The translations under genes were made by a program, and so were the position numbers. A DNA stretch of 57,195 nt. It comes from a virus. This document shows, one piece after another, positions 1,821 through 41,263 of the stretch (position 1 is its first letter; each line of letters opens with the position of its first letter). Where the stretch lies: the IMG/VR virus record IMGVR_UViG_3300017527_000961, positions 1 to 57,195 of that record. One strand, 5' to 3'. The notes beneath the pieces are model-generated. The model was given only the letters and a program-made list of their open reading frames with translations, was not told the DNA's origin and ran no database searches.

Positions 1821-3272
1821 ATGGACACGAAACGCCACACATATAATCAGGCACGCACCTTGTCTTTTGCGCCATCTGGTATTCCAGATCATCGAGTCTC
1901 TGATATTCCTGAGTTTACTGAAACTCATGTTTCTTGGCCTACAATAAAAAGGCTTCTTCCGATAATTCGAGCGCTTAGTGAACTGCATAGTGACTTTGCA
2001 ACTGTAAAGTCAAACATCATACGGTTGTGTAATACAGGGCATACATTTTCACTTGTATGCCCAACAAAAGATGACCTAAGAATGGCAGAAGAATCTCTCA
2101 ACGAATTCACTGTTGATGTGCGAGCTCGAACTGGCGGTATAAACGGCGTCATTAATCAGCTTCTTTCGCAACTTGCTACAGACGGCGCAGTGTCGGCTGA
2201 GGCTGAGGCAGAATTTGAGACACTTCCTGGATTTGATGGGCCATTTCCAACACGCATTGCCGGAATTCATCAGGTCGATGTAAGAAGCCTTGAATTGCAA
2301 TACTCTAAAAAATACTTTGGGTATCTTCCGTTCCAGAAGCAAAAAGGTGTCCGTGATCCTGTCATGTTGCCTGATAAAATGTATCATCTACAGGTTTTTA
2401 AGCCGTTGCCTGATCCGAATCCTCCGTATCCTGTGCCGCCAATGATCGCAGGACTATCAGAGGCACGACGCCAAAAGAACATGCTTCATAGTATTGATAG
2501 AGCTATGGAAAAAATTGGATTACTTGGCATTATGGATGCCACTATTGAGACTCCAGAACAAGGTGAGAATGAAGAGGACACAGATTACACTACCAGACTT
2601 AGAAGCATTCTTTCAAGTGTCGTAACCATGCTCGGAAAAAGTCTTTCTCAGGGCATTTACGCGCATTATGGGCAACTTGATTTTAAATTTACAAATTTTG
2701 GAGCTGAGTTCTCTAAAACACTCCCGTTGCTCGAACACGAACGCCAACGTATGGCGCAGTCTTTACAAAACGACTGGGCCTCAACCAGAGAGCAAAGCAC
2801 ATTCCTATCAATTGTCTATGAAAAGATTCTCAATGAGATGGTACATTATCAGCACCTCGTAACCGGACCTATCGAACAATGGACACGGCTGCACCTTGCA
2901 CTGCAGGGTCTTGTTAGAGGGTTTACTGTGCTGACAACATCTTTGTCGCTCGATCAAGACTCAGTGCGCTATTGGGAGAATGAGCTTGTAAAAGGAGAAG
3001 TCGCCAAAAATCTTGTTGAATTAGGAGTGGATCCGTCTGAAGCTTTGCGTTACATTAATGTAAATGTTGGCATGGGTGCTGACAATCAGCACGAACCAGA
3101 CAATGGCGGAACACAGGAAAAAGTAAAAGACGCAGTTATGTCGTCATTGCGTCCATATAGCACGATTTACAACAGACTGCACCAGGGCATTTTTAGGTTT
3201 TCTCTACACAACAAGCACGGACGACACTACACTCTCGAAAAAATTCACAATTTCGCCATATCTGATGTATGA
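1821..3272 (+). CDS. Probable phage portal protein
   Basis: A 483-residue protein starting after AGGAG (GGAGCTATATG). The order of segments fits portal proteins: an N-terminal helical part with a short conserved-looking block (residues about 60-110), then NQLLSQLATDGAVSAEAE, which is like the 'tail-end region, non-cognate side' pattern seen in portals, a beta-rich wing with PFPTRIAGIHQVDV, and a long helical C-terminal half. Portals form the dodecameric ring at the head vertex through which DNA enters. The terminase is far away at 49961, so synteny is unusual. Its stop overlaps the next start (ATGA). The assignment is by pattern, not by a diagnostic motif; another structural protein of similar size is the main alternative. 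Confidence 0.5.
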   Translation: MDTKRHTYNQARTLSFAPSGIPDHRVSDIPEFTETHVSWPTIKRLLPIIRALSELHSDFATVKSNIIRLCNTGHTFSLVCPTKDDLRMAEESLNEFTVDVRARTGGINGVINQLLSQLATDGAVSAEAEAEFETLPGFDGPFPTRIAGIHQVDVRSLELQYSKKYFGYLPFQKQKGVRDPVMLPDKMYHLQVFKPLPDPNPPYPVPPMIAGLSEARRQKNMLHSIDRAMEKIGLLGIMDATIETPEQGENEEDTDYTTRLRSILSSVVTMLGKSLSQGIYAHYGQLDFKFTNFGAEFSKTLPLLEHERQRMAQSLQNDWASTREQSTFLSIVYEKILNEMVHYQHLVTGPIEQWTRLHLALQGLVRGFTVLTTSLSLDQDSVRYWENELVKGEVAKNLVELGVDPSEALRYINVNVGMGADNQHEPDNGGTQEKVKDAVMSSLRPYSTIYNRLHQGIFRFSLHNKHGRHYTLEKIHNFAISDV

Positions 3273-3945
3273 GACGAGATGCGTTTAACCATGAGATCGT
3301 AATGCTCCCAACGGAGCCGGTTTGGGACATTACGGTTATTGCAAAACAGATATTTGACATTACACAAATCACGCTATGCCCATATCATCAGCCATCGGAT
3401 GACAGCAAAACGCATTTTGCACATTTTTTTATAGATGACAAACATTTTTCCGGGATGTGGGCTGATCCGATTAACGCACTGACAAGGATCAGACGATTTA
3501 AAGGGGCGCTGAGTCCGGATTTTTCAACGCCGTGGGATTGGCCGTTAGTGGATCAGTTGTTTAATGTCCGCAGAAACAGGTTTTTCGGAGCATTTTGGCA
3601 ATTCCATGAAATTCCCGTAATTCCGACAGTGTCCTGGGCAATGAACGTAGTTATGATTTTTGCTTTCTTGGAATTGAGGTAGGATCAACTGTTGCAATTT
3701 CGTCACTTGGTGTGGGCAAAAATGCGTGTTTCATGCAGTTGTTTTTGCAAGGGTTTTATGAAATGCTTCATAGGATCCGCCCTGACGCTGTCTTGTATTA
3801 TGGTCCTCAAGTCAAAGGACTGGAAAAGACAACATGCCCGATAGTCTTTTCCAAGACCTTTAATCAAAAATGGCAATCCGCGCACATAGAAAACGAGGTG
3901 CAGCAACCAGAAGAGAATCGCTTTCTTCAGGCATCCGTGGCATAA
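3269..3945 (+). pseudogene. DUF4417-family protein interrupted by a one-base frameshift
   Basis: The first 137 codons (3269-3682) end in VIPTVSWAMNVVMIFAFLELR. The -1 frame from about 3640 continues the family pattern instead (NERSYDFCFLGIEVGSTVAI, then LFLQGFYEMLHRIRPDAVL and YYGP) to a stop at 3943-3945. DUF4417 proteins normally read PTVSW-x-E-x-x-x-x-FCFxGIP-x-GSTVA, so the two pieces together make one roughly 225-residue protein with one base missing near TGGGCAA (3635-3641). No classical slippery heptamer is there, so mutation or a sequencing error is more likely than programmed frameshifting. Function of the family is unknown. It overlaps the previous gene by ATGA and the next start by 76 bp. 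Confidence 0.7.
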
Positions 3946-12903: not shown

Positions 12904-13112
12904 GGAACACTGTCTAATCTAGTGTGCTGCTACGCCAAAGGTACTAATTGGTGACAACGGATATTTTTTTACTCGGTTCGACACACACCTTAAAGGTACT
13001 TCAGTCTCTCTTGTCACTCGATGAAGGTTTTTTGTGCCGTCCCACCCGATCCCACTCTTTCAAGGATGGCTGCTTCTAGGCCAACCTACTGAGATGTCTT
13101 TGACAGTGCTCC
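12904..13112 (-). ncRNA. Candidate structured RNA containing a 23S rRNA GTPase-centre-like hairpin
   Basis: The minus-strand sequence starts immediately after the TGA of the upstream gene (13113-13115). GGAGCACTGTC (13112-13102) pairs over 11 bases with GACAGTGTTCC (12914-12904), closing a roughly 209-nt domain. A second helix joins GTGACAA (13017-13011) with TTGTCAC (12957-12951). Between them, 13087-13056 matches about 30 of 32 bases of the 23S rRNA segment around E. coli 1057-1090, including the loop CTAGAAGCA flanked by GGTTGGC and GCCATCC, that is helix 43 with the A1067 equivalent. The H44 loop (GCGUAAUAGC) is absent. It may be a processed 3' UTR RNA or the leader of the zinc protein gene. 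Pairing is seen directly; the 23S comparison is from memory. Confidence 0.6.
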
Positions 13113-13838
13113 TCACGCATGTAACATGCCGCTAAAAAGTTGTTCTTGAATAGCTTGACCTGATGGGCCAAGTGCTCTGGTCCATTCTTTTTGCGGATCT
13201 TTACCTTTTCTAACACACATGTCAATATAATATCCAGGAGGATGTAAAAGCCTGCTGTTTGCCTCGTTTTCAGCCCATTGACGAACTATATCAACAGATG
13301 GACGCGCAGAAGACGTTTCAAGCGCATATGTCCATTTTTTCCATAAGTAGTCATCCTGAGCGACACGCGACAACAAACGATCCCCTTCATTCAATGCCGC
13401 CTTTCCGCGCACGTCATCCCAGAGATTGGTTTTCTTTTTCTTCGAGTAATTAAGCAGATCAACGACGCTTTTATGCGGCAGCATCGGCGTATCATATGGA
13501 AAGTTTTCAAGCAACCTAAGCCCCTGGTACTCAAATGTTGTCGTATCTGACTGTGTCCCAAAAAACAGATCCTCCATTGTCAGACGCGGCTTTCCGAATG
13601 CACCGGTCTGAATTCCGGCCGCGACCGCAACCTGCTGCTTCAGAATGGATTCCCACTCACGATATTGGGCAAACAAATATCCTTCGATATATTCTTTATA
13701 GGTCAGCTTCTCAAAAATCTGTCGCGATGTGTACCCCAATGTAAACCAATATGTGCGGATCCTTGCATCATTTAAGACGGCGCTGTCTCGTCTCTTGATG
13801 CCTCGATTTGTCTGTGCTCCATGATGTACCGAAGCCAT
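13113..13838 (-). CDS. Hypothetical protein, possible tail assembly chaperone T-part
   Basis: The likely free start is ATG 13838 (MASVHHGAQTNRGIKRRD), although the frame is open back to at least 13937, giving 274 codons. No well-placed ribosome binding site precedes the ATG, and the frame lies -1 relative to the upstream 347-residue gene, which it overlaps. That layout is that of lambda G/T tail chaperones, in which T is made only as a frameshift fusion. The sequence is helical and charged, with no recognised domain. It ends directly at the candidate RNA. The chaperone idea is inference from architecture. Confidence 0.5.
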   Translation of the reverse strand: MASVHHGAQTNRGIKRRDSAVLNDARIRTYWFTLGYTSRQIFEKLTYKEYIEGYLFAQYREWESILKQQVAVAAGIQTGAFGKPRLTMEDLFFGTQSDTTTFEYQGLRLLENFPYDTPMLPHKSVVDLLNYSKKKKTNLWDDVRGKAALNEGDRLLSRVAQDDYLWKKWTYALETSSARPSVDIVRQWAENEANSRLLHPPGYYIDMCVRKGKDPQKEWTRALGPSGQAIQEQLFSGMLHA

Positions 13839-14815
13839 CTCCGATTCTTCGGAACCCTGCCCTCCACGACGCCCATAATTTCCCTCATGTTTCGGGCGAA
13901 AGGGTTTGTGACATCCTCCAGCGGCTTGAAGGCCCACACGTAAACAGCAGTCAACAGCACTTTTATTTGCGTCATCGGCAAAATTTCACGCATCTCTGTC
14001 CAGGGGCGCTCAAAAATAATCTGCGAAATCGGATCAAGGGTTGTGTCATCAGCATAAACAATCGATAATGGCACAGGAACGGTACGCTTGCAACGTCCAC
14101 ACGTGACCACTTCAGATGTTGTTAGCTCAATCGGATTATTCTTCGGCCACTTATCCAACGTCTTTTTAGCGTCTCCTAAACGCCGGGTAAATTCAGGAAT
14201 TTGAAGCTCATGACTTCCTATCACACGCTGCTGATTCGTGTATGCGTCCTTAAAGTCAACCAGACCGACAACCTCTTCCTGTAGCTTCTTATCAAGTGCT
14301 ACATATGCCAAGCCAGATAATCCTGCATATTTCTGAAGTTCAGCAAGCCGATCATTAATCATCTGATCGACATCATCAGAAGGCTGCAGACCTGAAATCT
14401 TCAACAGATTTGTAAGATTAAACTTCCCTTCCTCTACCCCACGCTGCATCTCTTCAATGCCAAGTGATAACGGCGGAATATTCCCGTCACCGTACAGCAT
14501 ACGTTCCAGCCTCTCCTTTTCAGCCACACATGAACATTGGCGCTTTGGGCTGATCAATTCAAGCACTTTCTCAAGATGTGTTTGCAGCGCAACCGACTCT
14601 CTAATTTTCGGAGATGTGATGTAGTTTTTTGTCAATTGAAGACCGGAATCATGCTCAACAATTTCGCCAGAATCCGGATCCGCTACCCGTTCAACTACTG
14701 ACTGAAAAAGAAGAATCGGACGTGCATCATGCCGGATCATCTCGTCAGCAAGTACATCACTGCCATCTGTCAGTGTTGCAAGCTGTTCTTCTGTTAAAAG
14801 CATATCATACCTCAT
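13772..14815 (-). CDS. Hypothetical protein with CxxC zinc knuckle, possible tail chaperone G-part
   Basis: 347 residues. The start ATG lies inside the last codons of the recombinase gene (11-nt overlap), so translation is coupled to it. Two cysteine pairs occur: CSCVAEKE near residue 97 and CGRCKRTV near residue 239, the latter zinc-ribbon-like. The rest is mostly helical. The last 45 codons overlap the next gene in the -1 frame with a slippery-like heptamer at 13901-13907. No family is recognised, and it is longer than usual tail chaperones, so a plain virion protein is also possible. Confidence 0.55.
   Translation of the reverse strand: MRYDMLLTEEQLATLTDGSDVLADEMIRHDARPILLFQSVVERVADPDSGEIVEHDSGLQLTKNYITSPKIRESVALQTHLEKVLELISPKRQCSCVAEKERLERMLYGDGNIPPLSLGIEEMQRGVEEGKFNLTNLLKISGLQPSDDVDQMINDRLAELQKYAGLSGLAYVALDKKLQEEVVGLVDFKDAYTNQQRVIGSHELQIPEFTRRLGDAKKTLDKWPKNNPIELTTSEVVTCGRCKRTVPVPLSIVYADDTTLDPISQIIFERPWTEMREILPMTQIKVLLTAVYVWAFKPLEDVTNPFARNMREIMGVVEGRVPKNRRWLRYIMEHRQIEASRDETAPS
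13901..13907 (-). other. Candidate -1 slippery heptamer A AAC CCT
   Basis: On the minus strand the heptamer AAACCCT sits in the 0 frame of the 347-residue gene as A-AAC-CCT, an X-XXY-YYZ pattern. A -1 slip would move ribosomes into the frame of the downstream gene, which is open from before this point. CCC/CCT is not the most slippery A-site codon, so efficiency may be low. Confidence 0.35.
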
Positions 14816-21656: not shown

Positions 21657-22177
21657 TGGCAACTGTCGGACCCTGGGATACAGACGATCTGAAAGTCCTG
21701 TACCATCTGAGTGAGGCACAATTTCACCCACCAATGTCGGCGGTAAATTTTGAAAACCTGATGGTGTACCTGCTGAATGACATCGTCGTGGATATTAAAT
21801 ATTACGTCACGGAAGATGTCTATGACACCTATGCTACAGATGATGACTTTAAAACCAAACTACAACGCTGCATGGCCCTGTGCCTGATTAACGACATGTA
21901 CCACCAACACGGCATGACCCTGTCAACAGGCGGGCAAATCTCATCAGAATCAATTCCGGATTTCGCCAGCGTCTCGTACCGCTACCCCACCATCGACACC
22001 AAACAAACCATGCTGAATAAAACCCGCCTGACTATCATTCTGGATTTGCTCGGACGCTATGTCCCAAGCGATGCACCAGTACAACCACCAAGCAGCAGCG
22101 CCCCTGTACATGGTGATTTTCTGTATTTTAACGAGGTTGAAGATCAACTCGATGTCGAACACGCCTATGAAGACTAA
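21656..22177 (+). CDS. Probable head-tail connector-type protein
   Basis: 173 residues, overlapping the previous stop (TAATG). The acidic, helical layout with a conserved-looking MVYLLNDIVVDIKYYVTEDV segment, followed by helices and a short tail, resembles gp6-like connector proteins, which sit just after the capsid gene. This is position-led inference. The C-terminal 26 bases overlap the methyltransferase gene. Confidence 0.5.
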   Translation: MATVGPWDTDDLKVLYHLSEAQFHPPMSAVNFENLMVYLLNDIVVDIKYYVTEDVYDTYATDDDFKTKLQRCMALCLINDMYHQHGMTLSTGGQISSESIPDFASVSYRYPTIDTKQTMLNKTRLTIILDLLGRYVPSDAPVQPPSSSAPVHGDFLYFNEVEDQLDVEHAYED

Positions 22178-23582
22178 ATCAACTACCGTCACCCCAAAAC
22201 CAGATGTCAGAAACGCGAATACCGGCACAAAGGCCGGGCGTGAAATGCTCAAACACTCCGTAGAAAGCCTGGGATACGGGCGATCTATCCTCGTTGATAA
22301 TGACAATAATATTATCGCCGGAAATAAAACCTTTAAAGAAGCCAACGAACAAGGCATCGAAACCGTGCGCGTGATCGAAACGGACGGCTCAGAACTGATC
22401 GCCGTCAAACGCACCGACCTGAATCTCTACGAAGATCCAAAAGCCAGAGAACTGGCCTTCGCAGATAACCGCACCGCCGAAACAAACCTGACATGGGATC
22501 CTACCATTATCACTGAAGACTTTCACGATCAACGCCTCGATATTGGCTGGATGTTCGAGCAAGAAATTAAACAATTCAAAAAAATGCAGGAACTCACAGA
22601 TCGTCCGATCACGATGGATGAGCAACGAGAAACCCAAGTATTCACGATTGATTTTCCGGAATTCTCACACGGCGACATCATTACGTGTCTGTCACAAAAA
22701 GTCACGAAGCCCCATGTCCTCATCTATGGAGATGCAAGAGAGAAAGCAACCTATGATGCTCTGTTCGATGTGGCCGGCCATATCGACTGCACCATCACCA
22801 GCCCACCATATTCAAATCAACGCGAATATGACGGACTTACAGCCGATGATCTCACCCCGGAAAGCCTCGCACAGTTCCTCACACAGTTCCTCACACATAC
22901 CGCCAAACATATCCCATACGCTGTCGTCAACCTCGGATTACAAATGAGACACGGTGAGGTGTTTGACTATTGGGAAGTCTATAAACAAGCCGCCAAACAA
23001 TCAGGCTATAAACTCCTGGCATGGAACGTCTGGGATCGGTTGAAACCCGGCTCTATTAATGCACAAACAGCCCCAATGTTTCCCCTCGAACATGAGTGGA
23101 TCTTTGTCTTCGGACATACACGTAAAGAAATCAACCGGACAGTGCCATGCTCACACTACGAACAAAGCATTGAACGCGCCGCAGGAAAGACAGGCTTTAC
23201 TCCACAGCGCGATCCGGACGGCACACTGGCCCTGACAACATATCCGGTCCATGAATTTAGAAAACTCCCGTCAGTCTTACGGCAACTTCCAGTCCCAGGC
23301 ACGAGAAAATATAGCCACTCAGCCCCGTTTCCGGTAGAACTTCCGTATGACTATATTCTGGCGCTCACAGACCCACAAGAAACCGTCCTTGACCCGTTCG
23401 TCGGATCAGGATCCACATTCGCCGCCGCAGAAATGGCATCACGAAGATGCTGCGGGATCGATATTTCACAAGAATGTATAAAAACAACCCTGCAACAATG
23501 GCTCGATACCGCGCATACAGACGCACTGTCAATTTCAGTAAACGGCACGCCTATTCACTTCATGCAAGAAGACACCTCATGA
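22152..23582 (+). CDS. ParB-like domain fused to DNA methyltransferase (beta class)
   Basis: The frame is open from 22059, but ATG 22152 (MSNTPMKTKSTTVTPK) is the first that avoids a long overlap. Residues about 25-130 are a ParB/Srx-like module (LVDNDNNIIAGNKTFKEANE). The catalytic motif is TSPPYSNQREYDG near residue 220, and the SAM-binding motif is DPFVGSGSTFAAAEMA near residue 425; motif IV before motif I is the beta-class order. SPPY is commonest in N4-cytosine enzymes but also occurs in N6-adenine ones. No restriction nuclease is adjacent, so it is likely a phage self-protection or regulatory methylase. Confidence 0.85.
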   Translation: MSNTPMKTKSTTVTPKPDVRNANTGTKAGREMLKHSVESLGYGRSILVDNDNNIIAGNKTFKEANEQGIETVRVIETDGSELIAVKRTDLNLYEDPKARELAFADNRTAETNLTWDPTIITEDFHDQRLDIGWMFEQEIKQFKKMQELTDRPITMDEQRETQVFTIDFPEFSHGDIITCLSQKVTKPHVLIYGDAREKATYDALFDVAGHIDCTITSPPYSNQREYDGLTADDLTPESLAQFLTQFLTHTAKHIPYAVVNLGLQMRHGEVFDYWEVYKQAAKQSGYKLLAWNVWDRLKPGSINAQTAPMFPLEHEWIFVFGHTRKEINRTVPCSHYEQSIERAAGKTGFTPQRDPDGTLALTTYPVHEFRKLPSVLRQLPVPGTRKYSHSAPFPVELPYDYILALTDPQETVLDPFVGSGSTFAAAEMASRRCCGIDISQECIKTTLQQWLDTAHTDALSISVNGTPIHFMQEDTS

Positions 23583-39129: not shown

Positions 39130-39158
39130 AGCTTACTGGTGGAACGTGATTTTGTCAA
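39130..39158 (-). promoter_or_regulatory. Promoter-like site reading left into the noncoding region
   Basis: On the minus strand TTGACA (39158-39153), 17-bp spacer, TAAGCT (39135-39130). GAAAAAAGTGC precedes it. It would transcribe toward the palindrome array, where no gene is seen, so it may make a noncoding transcript. Confidence 0.4.
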
Positions 39159-41263
39159 GCACTTTTTTCGATATTTTCACCATGTTGCGTAAAGTTTGCC
39201 AGAATATCCCGACATGCGTCTGTTTCGGGGAGAAGTTCCGGGTGTTGAAACACGGTTTCCAGGCTGGTGATAGCGGGAAATTCCGGATTGTTGACAGCGT
39301 GTTCCAAAAACTTTCGTTGCGTTTCGCTGATTTCCAGTTTCAGCCAATAGGCGACCCGTTCCTCTGTGGGGAGTTCGATCACCGTTAAGCCTGTGGGTTG
39401 GTGTTCGTGAAACAGCACATCGACAGCGCGGCATTTTCTCCGGTAGCGGTCTAGAAGTCCGGGGACATTCGCCGGATTCCATCCTTGGCCTGACCGTCCT
39501 GGTTGATCGGCCCATTCCGACAGCGTGTGTTGCCACAGTTCAAGATTCCTGACAGTGGCCATAATCAGACGTTGCTGCTGTACCGACAGGGAGACGGCGA
39601 AGCATAACCGAAACATATCGAGTGCGTCGTTTGTCTCTGGAAACTGTGGGTACGCCGTGGTATGGGCATCTGCCAAAAACTGTTGAATCACCGCATACCC
39701 GTTGGTTGGTTGAAACGTCAATTCTCCTGTGTCCGTAAAATGCGAATATTGTTGAGCGATCCAGGCGCTAAACACCGTGATAGTTGCGGGTTGCAGGACG
39801 GGTTGGGGGGGGTTATACTCCGCAAAAGTGGCGAAAAACGCAGCATGGGTTGTGGGGTCTATAGGCCCGTAAATCGGGCCGAACAGCAGATTTACCGACG
39901 CAAGTCCGAAGAGCGCCGAGGGGTTGCTGTGTTCCTGCTCTTGAAAAAAAGAAAAGAAAAGCGGAGCGGAAAAGTTTGATAGGGCCTCGCGATCCTCTTT
40001 CAAGATCCCAGATCCGACTCTTTCTTTTACCGAGATCCGAGATCCGGAATGCGCGCGCGAGGAGGGGTTGTCTTCGCCCTGCTGGCGGGCGTTTCCAGCG
40101 ACGGATTTACAAAAGTTTGTGTCCGCGGAATGTCCGCGGAATGTCCGCCCCCACATTGTAGCACCGTTTTCCGATCTCTCGGCGGACATTTCACCTTGTA
40201 AGTCATTATTGCCATTACCACTTTCGGGATCTCTTGAACGGACACCAGAAAATTGCCCAAAACCTACCCGGTCGATGTCCTGCGCGGACATTTCACCTTG
40301 TAACTCATTATCTTTGTTACTACTTCCAGGATCTCTCAGGCGAACATTGTCCGAAATGTCCGCCTTTGGGTCATCGATCTCTCGGTCGGACATTTCACCT
40401 TGTAACTCATTATCTTTGTTACTACTTCCAGGATCTTCTGGACGGACATTGTCGTTTTTCTGCGCGGACATTTCACCTTGTAACTCATTATCTTTGTTAC
40501 TACTTCCAGGATCTTCTGGACGGACACCGTACCCTGGCGCAGCAACATTCCAAAACTTCTGCGCGGACATTTCACCTTGTAACTCATTATCTTTGTTACT
40601 ACTTCCAGGATCTTCTGGACGGACATTGCCCTGTTTTCCATCCTCTGATTTTGTCCTGACTTTTGCTTCTCTCAGAGGGATTCCAACCTCTTTCTCGCCC
40701 ACCCCTTCTGACGCTCCTTGGCTAACGTTTGTAACGCCGCGCTCATCATTCAAAAGCGCGGACACAAACCGTTCTAACAGTTTGTTTTCACGAGACTTAT
40801 CCGCATGTCTCGGCAGTGTCTCAATGTGAATACCCAAAAGTATGTCAATTCGACTTGTGTCAATCCTTAGCAACTCTGAAAACGACGTAGTCCCGGTCAT
40901 TTCCAGGATTTTTCGACAGACTTGTGTGTACCGCTGAATTTCCGGATATTGATCGGTTTTCACCTGCATTGTTAAGTCAGGATTCATGATCAGACAGCGC
41001 CGCACGGCGTGGGGTTCTGAGGTCACAATCACGATCTGTTTCTCTTGAAGCATGATCATCCAGCGCCGCACTGATCGTGTGCTGACTTGTGCCGGTCTGT
41101 GTCCGCGTTTTAACAGTGTAACGAACTCTTTATTGGCATCGTAACAGGCCCCATAATGGAGTGTTTGATACAGGATTCGTAGACAGATCCGCTTCATCGA
41201 CACGGTTAATTGTTTATCCTGCTGAATAGTTGCTGGCAGGTCTGAAATTTTGAGTGATGGCAT
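39155..41263 (-). CDS. Putative replication initiator-like protein with internal repeats
   Basis: 702 residues. Residues about 20-100 form a winged-helix-like domain (MKRICLRILYQTLHYG ... VSTRSVRRWMIMLQEKQIVI), similar in plan to HTH_36 domains of phage replication initiators. Residues about 215-350 hold five repeats of DPGSSNKDNELQGEMSAQ, followed by a charged linker and a helical C-terminal domain of about 270 residues. DNA repeats in the middle of an initiator gene are the layout of lambda O, where the iterons are the origin. It reads toward the noncoding region and lies next to an HTH gene. The initiator role is inferred from the fold pattern and the repeats. Confidence 0.55.
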   Translation of the reverse strand: MPSLKISDLPATIQQDKQLTVSMKRICLRILYQTLHYGACYDANKEFVTLLKRGHRPAQVSTRSVRRWMIMLQEKQIVIVTSEPHAVRRCLIMNPDLTMQVKTDQYPEIQRYTQVCRKILEMTGTTSFSELLRIDTSRIDILLGIHIETLPRHADKSRENKLLERFVSALLNDERGVTNVSQGASEGVGEKEVGIPLREAKVRTKSEDGKQGNVRPEDPGSSNKDNELQGEMSAQKFWNVAAPGYGVRPEDPGSSNKDNELQGEMSAQKNDNVRPEDPGSSNKDNELQGEMSDREIDDPKADISDNVRLRDPGSSNKDNELQGEMSAQDIDRVGFGQFSGVRSRDPESGNGNNDLQGEMSAERSENGATMWGRTFRGHSADTNFCKSVAGNARQQGEDNPSSRAHSGSRISVKERVGSGILKEDREALSNFSAPLFFSFFQEQEHSNPSALFGLASVNLLFGPIYGPIDPTTHAAFFATFAEYNPPQPVLQPATITVFSAWIAQQYSHFTDTGELTFQPTNGYAVIQQFLADAHTTAYPQFPETNDALDMFRLCFAVSLSVQQQRLIMATVRNLELWQHTLSEWADQPGRSGQGWNPANVPGLLDRYRRKCRAVDVLFHEHQPTGLTVIELPTEERVAYWLKLEISETQRKFLEHAVNNPEFPAITSLETVFQHPELLPETDACRDILANFTQHGENIEKSA
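40181..40611. repeat. Five 52-bp direct repeats within the coding sequence
   Basis: Plus-strand copies of GCGGACATTTCACCTTGTAA then CTCATTATCTTTGTTACTAC and TTCCAGGATCT start near 40181 (diverged), 40284, 40386, 40463 and 40560, about 77-103 bp apart. The last four are almost identical even at synonymous positions. Each contains GTAAC...GTTAC in inverted orientation. The spacers differ in length and sequence. Confidence 0.85.

Follow-up and report, generated by a model that had tools for sequence, protein, structure and literature searches.

The DNA analysed here, referred to as the window, is the whole stretch of 57,195 nt that makes up positions 1 to 57,195 of the IMG/VR virus record IMGVR_UViG_3300017527_000961. 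It encodes phage portal, tape-measure, head, helicase and terminase proteins and is included in its entirety, at 100% identity, in a 90-kb contig. On the minus strand, one base past the stop codon of an 825-nt open reading frame (13113-13937), begins a segment that resembles ribosomal RNA, and about 75 nt separate its 3' end from the next open reading frame on the same strand (12829-12332). A scan for promoters and terminators near this segment yielded nothing above chance. Elsewhere in the window, a single protein (22059-23582, plus strand) has matches in ParB-like partition families as well as in DNA methyltransferase families, and comparison with the identical contig revealed tandem-like internal repeats of about 80% identity (40182-40638, minus strand) within a 702-residue open reading frame (39155-41263).

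The first-pass annotation, made from the letters alone, had proposed that the segment copies helix 43 (H43) of the GTPase-associated centre (GAC) of 23S rRNA, and the position and the rRNA-like character of the RNA are confirmed by the comparison with Rfam that it suggested: LSU_rRNA_bacteria (RF02541) matches 13111-12905 with 27.5 bits (E = 8.4e-7, 321 nt searched with permissive settings), which falls below the curated cut-off of 50 bits for this model. A scan of the window RNA at the gathering threshold reported no match. The similarity to rRNA is thus real, but its extent had been drawn too small, as the alignment spans model positions 1075-1162, that is, the complete H42-H43-H44 unit, with 126 nt replacing 8. 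Neither is H44 lost, as had been assumed: its loop GCGUAGCAGC and the closing ACAC sit past an insert of 114 nt, so that H44 is split. The locus therefore contains H42-H44 only, with the insert in H44, and not a full LSU rRNA gene with an uninterrupted H44. The parts of the RNA are listed in Table 1 in E. coli numbering, anchored on the alignment to the LSU model. The proposed 11-bp helix between the two ends is present, while a 7-bp helix proposed within the insert finds no comparative support, the sole relative of the window's insert being the one in the 100% identical contig. The folding energy of the window RNA alone is not significant (z = -1.0), and the case for it consequently rests on its homologues.

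Table 1. Parts of the window RNA, listed from its outer helix inwards and then in 5' to 3' order.
Feature	Positions	Strand	Remarks
Whole RNA	12904-13112	minus	About 209 nt, bounded by the end helix; LSU model match 13111-12905; register set by comparison with 112 relatives
Outer P1/H42 helix, 5' strand	13102-13112	minus	Pairs with 12904-12914; 11 bp, one G-U
Outer P1/H42 helix, 3' strand	12904-12914	minus	Pairs with 13102-13112
AAAGACA, 5' side of the H42 internal loop	13095-13101	minus	Opposite UUA at 12915-12917; LSU model aligns the same loop
Inner H42 helix, 5' strand	13089-13094	minus	1054-1055 and onwards; partner strand 12918-12922, with a single bulged C
H43 hairpin with A1067 loop	13063-13087	minus	E. 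coli 1057-1081; LSU alignment
Junction 1082-1090	13054-13062	minus	Tertiary pair U1082/A1086, A1088, GAGU
Inserted domain, 114 nt	12940-13053	minus	In the 5' strand of H44; own closing helix (GG...CC in the window), covarying in the family
UUUG linker from insert to H44 loop	12936-12939	minus	Near-invariant across the family
H44 apical stem-loop GCGUAGCAGC	12926-12935	minus	E. coli 1091-1100
ACAC	12922-12925	minus	E. coli 1101-1104; includes the family-specific A1101

Well over 100 viral contigs contain relatives of the RNA, and so do named phages. Searching IMG/VR for exact copies of TTGGCNTAGAAGCAGCCATC returned 86 stretches. Within this first scan set a normal rRNA H44 follows directly after H43 in only 1 of 87 loci; most of the others continue with GAGT, a variable stretch and then TTTGGCGTANNAGCACAC. 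A second scan for this 3' motif alone found at least 119 stretches, and among the matches listed the H43 motif lies upstream (at most 4 mismatches of 18) in 84 of 97 new viral loci, as compared to 0-1 for shuffled upstream sequence. A scan of 84,980 genomes of bacteria and archaea found the 3' motif in 35 stretches, 14 of them with H43, and two of those checked (L187 and L214) have phage-type genes nearby. A diverged copy on a Chitinophagales MAG contig (L202:6299, plus strand), located beside genes for caspase-domain and leucine-rich-repeat proteins, may be cellular rather than of phage origin. Named phages that carry the RNA include those of Cronobacter (GAP32), Pectobacterium (CBB), Serratia (BF), Erwinia (SNUABM phages and Kaldavass), Xanthomonas (XacN1, XaC1, XbC2) and Pseudomonas (pf16, Astolliot, Milchi, UNO-G1W1), as well as Aeromonas phage 4_4572 and Paenibacillus phage Pd_22F. 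In nearly all of them the RNA is without annotation; in Milchi, Kaldavass and UNO-G1W1 small hypothetical coding sequences, which are probably spurious, are annotated over or into it. One contig (L176) contains two distinct GAC RNAs in tandem (reverse-strand positions 292 and 542) with different inserts. Rfam 15 has no family that covers the RNA in the loci scanned (the window and other member loci), and searches of open-access literature turned up no description of it; to our knowledge, no free-standing copy of the GTPase centre has been described from phages. The GAC RNA is a previously unlisted, widespread phage RNA family. A family covariance model (R1) splits members with long inserts into two halves and is therefore poor for scoring the whole RNA, the halves of the window RNA reaching 30.5 and 15.6 bits.

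How well is the ribosomal fold preserved? Covariation was analysed in 112 non-redundant members, using an ungapped alignment, all 4186 column pairs and a null of sequences re-evolved on the tree, which is a home-made version of the R-scape idea and not R-scape itself. The 12 highest-ranking pairs are all predicted pairs, and none was equalled in 83,720 simulated pairs. Seven of them belong to P1 (1048-1054 with 1105-1111), the sequence of which differs from member to member and yet covaries, and three to the helix that closes the insert. The H43 pair 1058/1080, canonical in 112 of 112 members, and the GAC tertiary pair 1082/1086 (UA 57, CG 33 and AU 15 of the 112) covary as well. Columns 1056/1082 and 1056/1086, which would form the base triple of the rRNA, rank shortly after the top 12 and are not significant (E about 1). 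In an independent count with 44 diverse members, 92% of the cells were paired, versus 65.6% after shuffling and 35-55% after sliding, and the covariation score was 0.655 versus 0.155 and at most 0.175, respectively. The covariation of P1, H43, the insert helix and the tertiary pair 1082/1086 across homologues strongly supports the proposal that a phage RNA imitates the GAC.

The conservation pattern points in the same direction. G1059, U1060, C1079, A1085, G1087, A1088 and U1090 are invariant in 112 of 112 members. In members found by the 5' motif, for which the other half was not selected on, positions 1091-1094 and 1098-1101, including A1101, are conserved in 46 of 46 and A1095 in 45 of 46. 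The fold-critical U1060, A1085, A1088 and G1091-U1094 are invariant also in the subsets not selected on the respective half, whereas only 47 of the 61 members picked regardless of that base have an A at 1067, the fold-critical bases being kept in 61 of 61. With H43 and H44 in register, the tertiary pair 1082/1086 and invariant U1060 and A1088, it is close to certain that this is a real family with the GAC fold. Beyond these elements the window RNA retains the asymmetric 7-by-3 internal loop of H42, a region that in rRNA is the L10 stalk-base site. This loop was seen in only two of the members examined, the window and L120, most members having a plain helix; descent from an rRNA fragment would be expected to leave such a trace. 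In seven members H43 itself contains an additional hairpin, which follows A1077.

As compared to the GAC of bacterial 23S rRNA (H42-H44, E. coli 1051-1108, RF02541), the phage RNA has the same register, H43, tertiary pair, A1088 and H44 loop GCGUAAUAGC and, in the window and L120, the same H42 internal loop. It differs in being free-standing, in the 51-365 nt inserted in H44, in its variable P1 and UUUG linker, in a score below the Rfam cut-off and in having A1101, which replaces the rRNA consensus U in nearly all members. That nearly all members share A1101 together with the UUUG linker and the insert helix points to a single family rather than to repeated capture of host rRNA. Could the loci nevertheless be stray or decaying pieces of host 23S rRNA, or contamination? 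Some matches in phage collections, and the one locus of the 87 mentioned above, are indeed plain host rRNA, but the derived features common to the members, the strong covariation and the conservation of the same intergenic gap in related jumbo phages leave this explanation practically no probability, and host rRNA contamination is ruled out by covariation and synteny. Several short unannotated 'phage' records (OR84xxxx and similar; Staphylococcus, Listeria, Escherichia, Salmonella) that match host 23S rRNA look like host contamination.

A striking feature of the family is its proximity to tRNA genes. In 75 of 156 members a tRNA gene lies within 200 nt, on the same strand in 75 of 75, and in 56 of 156 within 15 nt, again always on the same strand, the control value for random placements in the same loci being 2.5%; in 11 members the RNA lies between two tRNA genes. 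This same-strand adjacency suggests that the RNA is co-transcribed with tRNAs and that its ends are set by tRNA processing. Neither the window's phage nor the identical 90-kb contig has a tRNA gene. No neighbouring, partner or downstream gene recurs widely in the 156 loci, the largest clusters of neighbours comprising 6 of 156, and no phage-encoded L11 domain was found in the 50 records searched whole. These observations bear on the idea that the RNA is a cis-acting leader through which L11 or another ligand controls the phage gene behind it. Ribosomal protein leaders (L20, S15, S4) are likewise RNA copies of ribosomal protein binding sites, so that rRNA mimicry in leaders has precedent (PMC7247131), and the window RNA is followed after only 75 nt by a gene of the same strand; however, such leaders are cis elements before cellular ribosomal protein genes, while the phage GAC RNA is free-standing and has no such gene behind it. 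As many members are followed within 15 nt by a tRNA gene, and as a recurring downstream gene and an L11 gene are both missing from the loci and records just described, a cis leader is very improbable. The more specific suggestion of a leader for the zinc protein gene is not supported by the genomic context, the homologues sharing no downstream gene and about half of them being close to tRNA genes.

Action in trans is, by contrast to a cis leader, highly probable: the lack of a constant neighbour gene, and of an L11 domain in the 50 records, argues for a host factor as the target. An RNA that stands alone, keeps its GAC core intact and occurs in a translation-related setting would most likely act on host translation. 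The known ligand of the GAC core is L11. Binding of L11 by the GAC RNA is rather probable and is favoured over mimicry purely of a tRNA-elbow or thiopeptide site by a conservation pattern in which the fold comes first and A1067 second. We therefore consider as leading candidate the decoy for L11 that was among the functions first suggested, and assign a probability of roughly 0.5 to the full proposal, according to which a free-standing GAC-mimic RNA captures or competes for host uL11 in trans and carries a variable second domain. Briefly, the ends of the RNA would fold as a copy of the L11-binding GTPase-associated centre with P1/H42, H43, the H44 loop and the same tertiary pair, and a separate variable domain would be placed within the 5' strand of H44. 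The RNA would be made from phage transcripts and, in the many relatives inside tRNA arrays, probably excised by tRNA processing. Acting in trans on the host translation apparatus, it would most likely capture or compete for uL11, possibly also for tRNA elbows or factors, and the window member perhaps in addition the L10-L12 stalk. The variable domain could provide a second, phage-specific activity. As a result, translation or the L11-dependent stringent response might be altered during infection; RelA activation requires L11 (PMC4974054). An effect through withdrawal of L11 or through the stringent response is less probable than L11 binding itself and has below even odds. It should also be noted that host L11 is abundant and ribosome-bound, which means that a decoy would have to be strongly expressed or draw on a special pool, and that the L10 site in only two members examined, the variability of A1067 and a phage without tRNA genes in the window count against the proposal.

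Alternatively, tRNA elbows or translation factors might dock on the RNA: the tips of H43 and H44 would stack on the elbows, so that phage tRNAs or uncharged tRNAs of the host are bound, be it together with L11 or not. In the ribosome-RelA complex A1067 stacks on the tRNA elbow (PMC5829649), and both the strong tRNA-gene neighbourhood and the near-invariance of A1095 would fit, but A1067 is less conserved than the fold-critical bases, and tRNA genes are missing from the vicinity of many members, among them that of the window; this explanation is unlikely. A counter-defence bait that soaks up a host toxin, nuclease, modifying enzyme or thiopeptide aimed at the ribosome would explain why the inserts differ greatly among phages, as in arms races; yet we know of no host defence directed at this part of the rRNA, and the hosts of the named phages are mostly Gram-negative. 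The H43 loop is the thiostrepton site (PMC5829649), but its key determinant, A1067, varies, and altogether a bait appears improbable.

The inserts themselves are heterogeneous, with a median length of 131 nt. Three designs were spotted by eye and counted with loose patterns that overlap slightly: a 3' hairpin CACCCC-NNAAN-GGTAAGG (31 of 131), GCGAAATGC...GTGATGTGC (16 of 131) and CAGGGGAAGGACAAG / GACCCTTAGAG (16 of 131). More than half of the inserts (72), including that of the window, fit none of the three. Inside the inserts of the scanned loci no Rfam family was detected, the only matches being tRNAs, tmRNA and Y-RNA-like matches nearby; a weak match to DUF805b in L120 (21.3 bits, cut-off 35.6) is absent from the other scanned members. 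It could be imagined that the insert is the working part of a structural RNA assembly like GOLLD or ROOL and that the GAC part is only a tether to ribosomes or L11. GOLLD and ROOL are large structured phage RNAs of unknown function, often encoded beside tRNA genes, and ribosomes are reported to bind GOLLD in pull-downs (PMC12286853). The tRNA-rich setting, which applies to the family and not to the window itself, and the large variable inserts are reminiscent of these RNAs. However, the phage GAC RNA is shorter and has a GAC core, the inserts go down to 51 nt and have no common fold, and the Rfam models of GOLLD and ROOL match neither the window nor the scanned member loci, and no shared sequence or fold was found; nor are GOLLD and ROOL described as copies of rRNA domains (PMC12286853). 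Such an assembly is about as improbable as a bait, and an L11 decoy with a variable second domain is preferred.

If this proposal is true, a viral RNA that copies the factor-binding centre of the ribosome would be a new viral route to act on host translation. Already known are the rRNA-mimicking ribosomal protein leaders (PMC7247131) and the presence of GOLLD and ROOL beside tRNA genes (PMC12286853). The findings suggest that phages use a fake piece of the ribosome to steer the protein-making machinery of the host. In its boldest form, to which we give slightly less than even odds, the GAC RNA would be the first free-standing decoy of a ribosomal functional centre known from a virus; it would capture L11 of the host, and the stalk base too in some members, so as to reprogramme translation or block the stringent response, and would be equipped with a swappable second domain. 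The family would also account for some of the stretches without annotation in phage tRNA arrays. Since it occurs in cultured phages (pf16, BF, GAP32, 4_4572), binding of L11, effects on the stringent response and deletion phenotypes are testable now. Work on RNA folding and on how L11 recognises its site would also profit from the natural variants of the GAC core, of which there are more than 100.

Several neighbourhoods contain further elements. On a 193-kb phage contig a tmRNA (L142:1829-2161, minus strand; Rfam 102.5 bits) lies among tRNA genes and the GAC RNA, and on a 376-kb phage contig two sub-threshold matches to the Y-RNA-like YrlA are located directly upstream of the GAC RNA (L144:1253-1479, minus strand). 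About 1.2 kb downstream of the GAC RNA in L214, a phrog_850 'RNA-binding protein' (DUF2828/DUF7788) is encoded (2070-3593, plus strand), and similar proteins are found near three other members.
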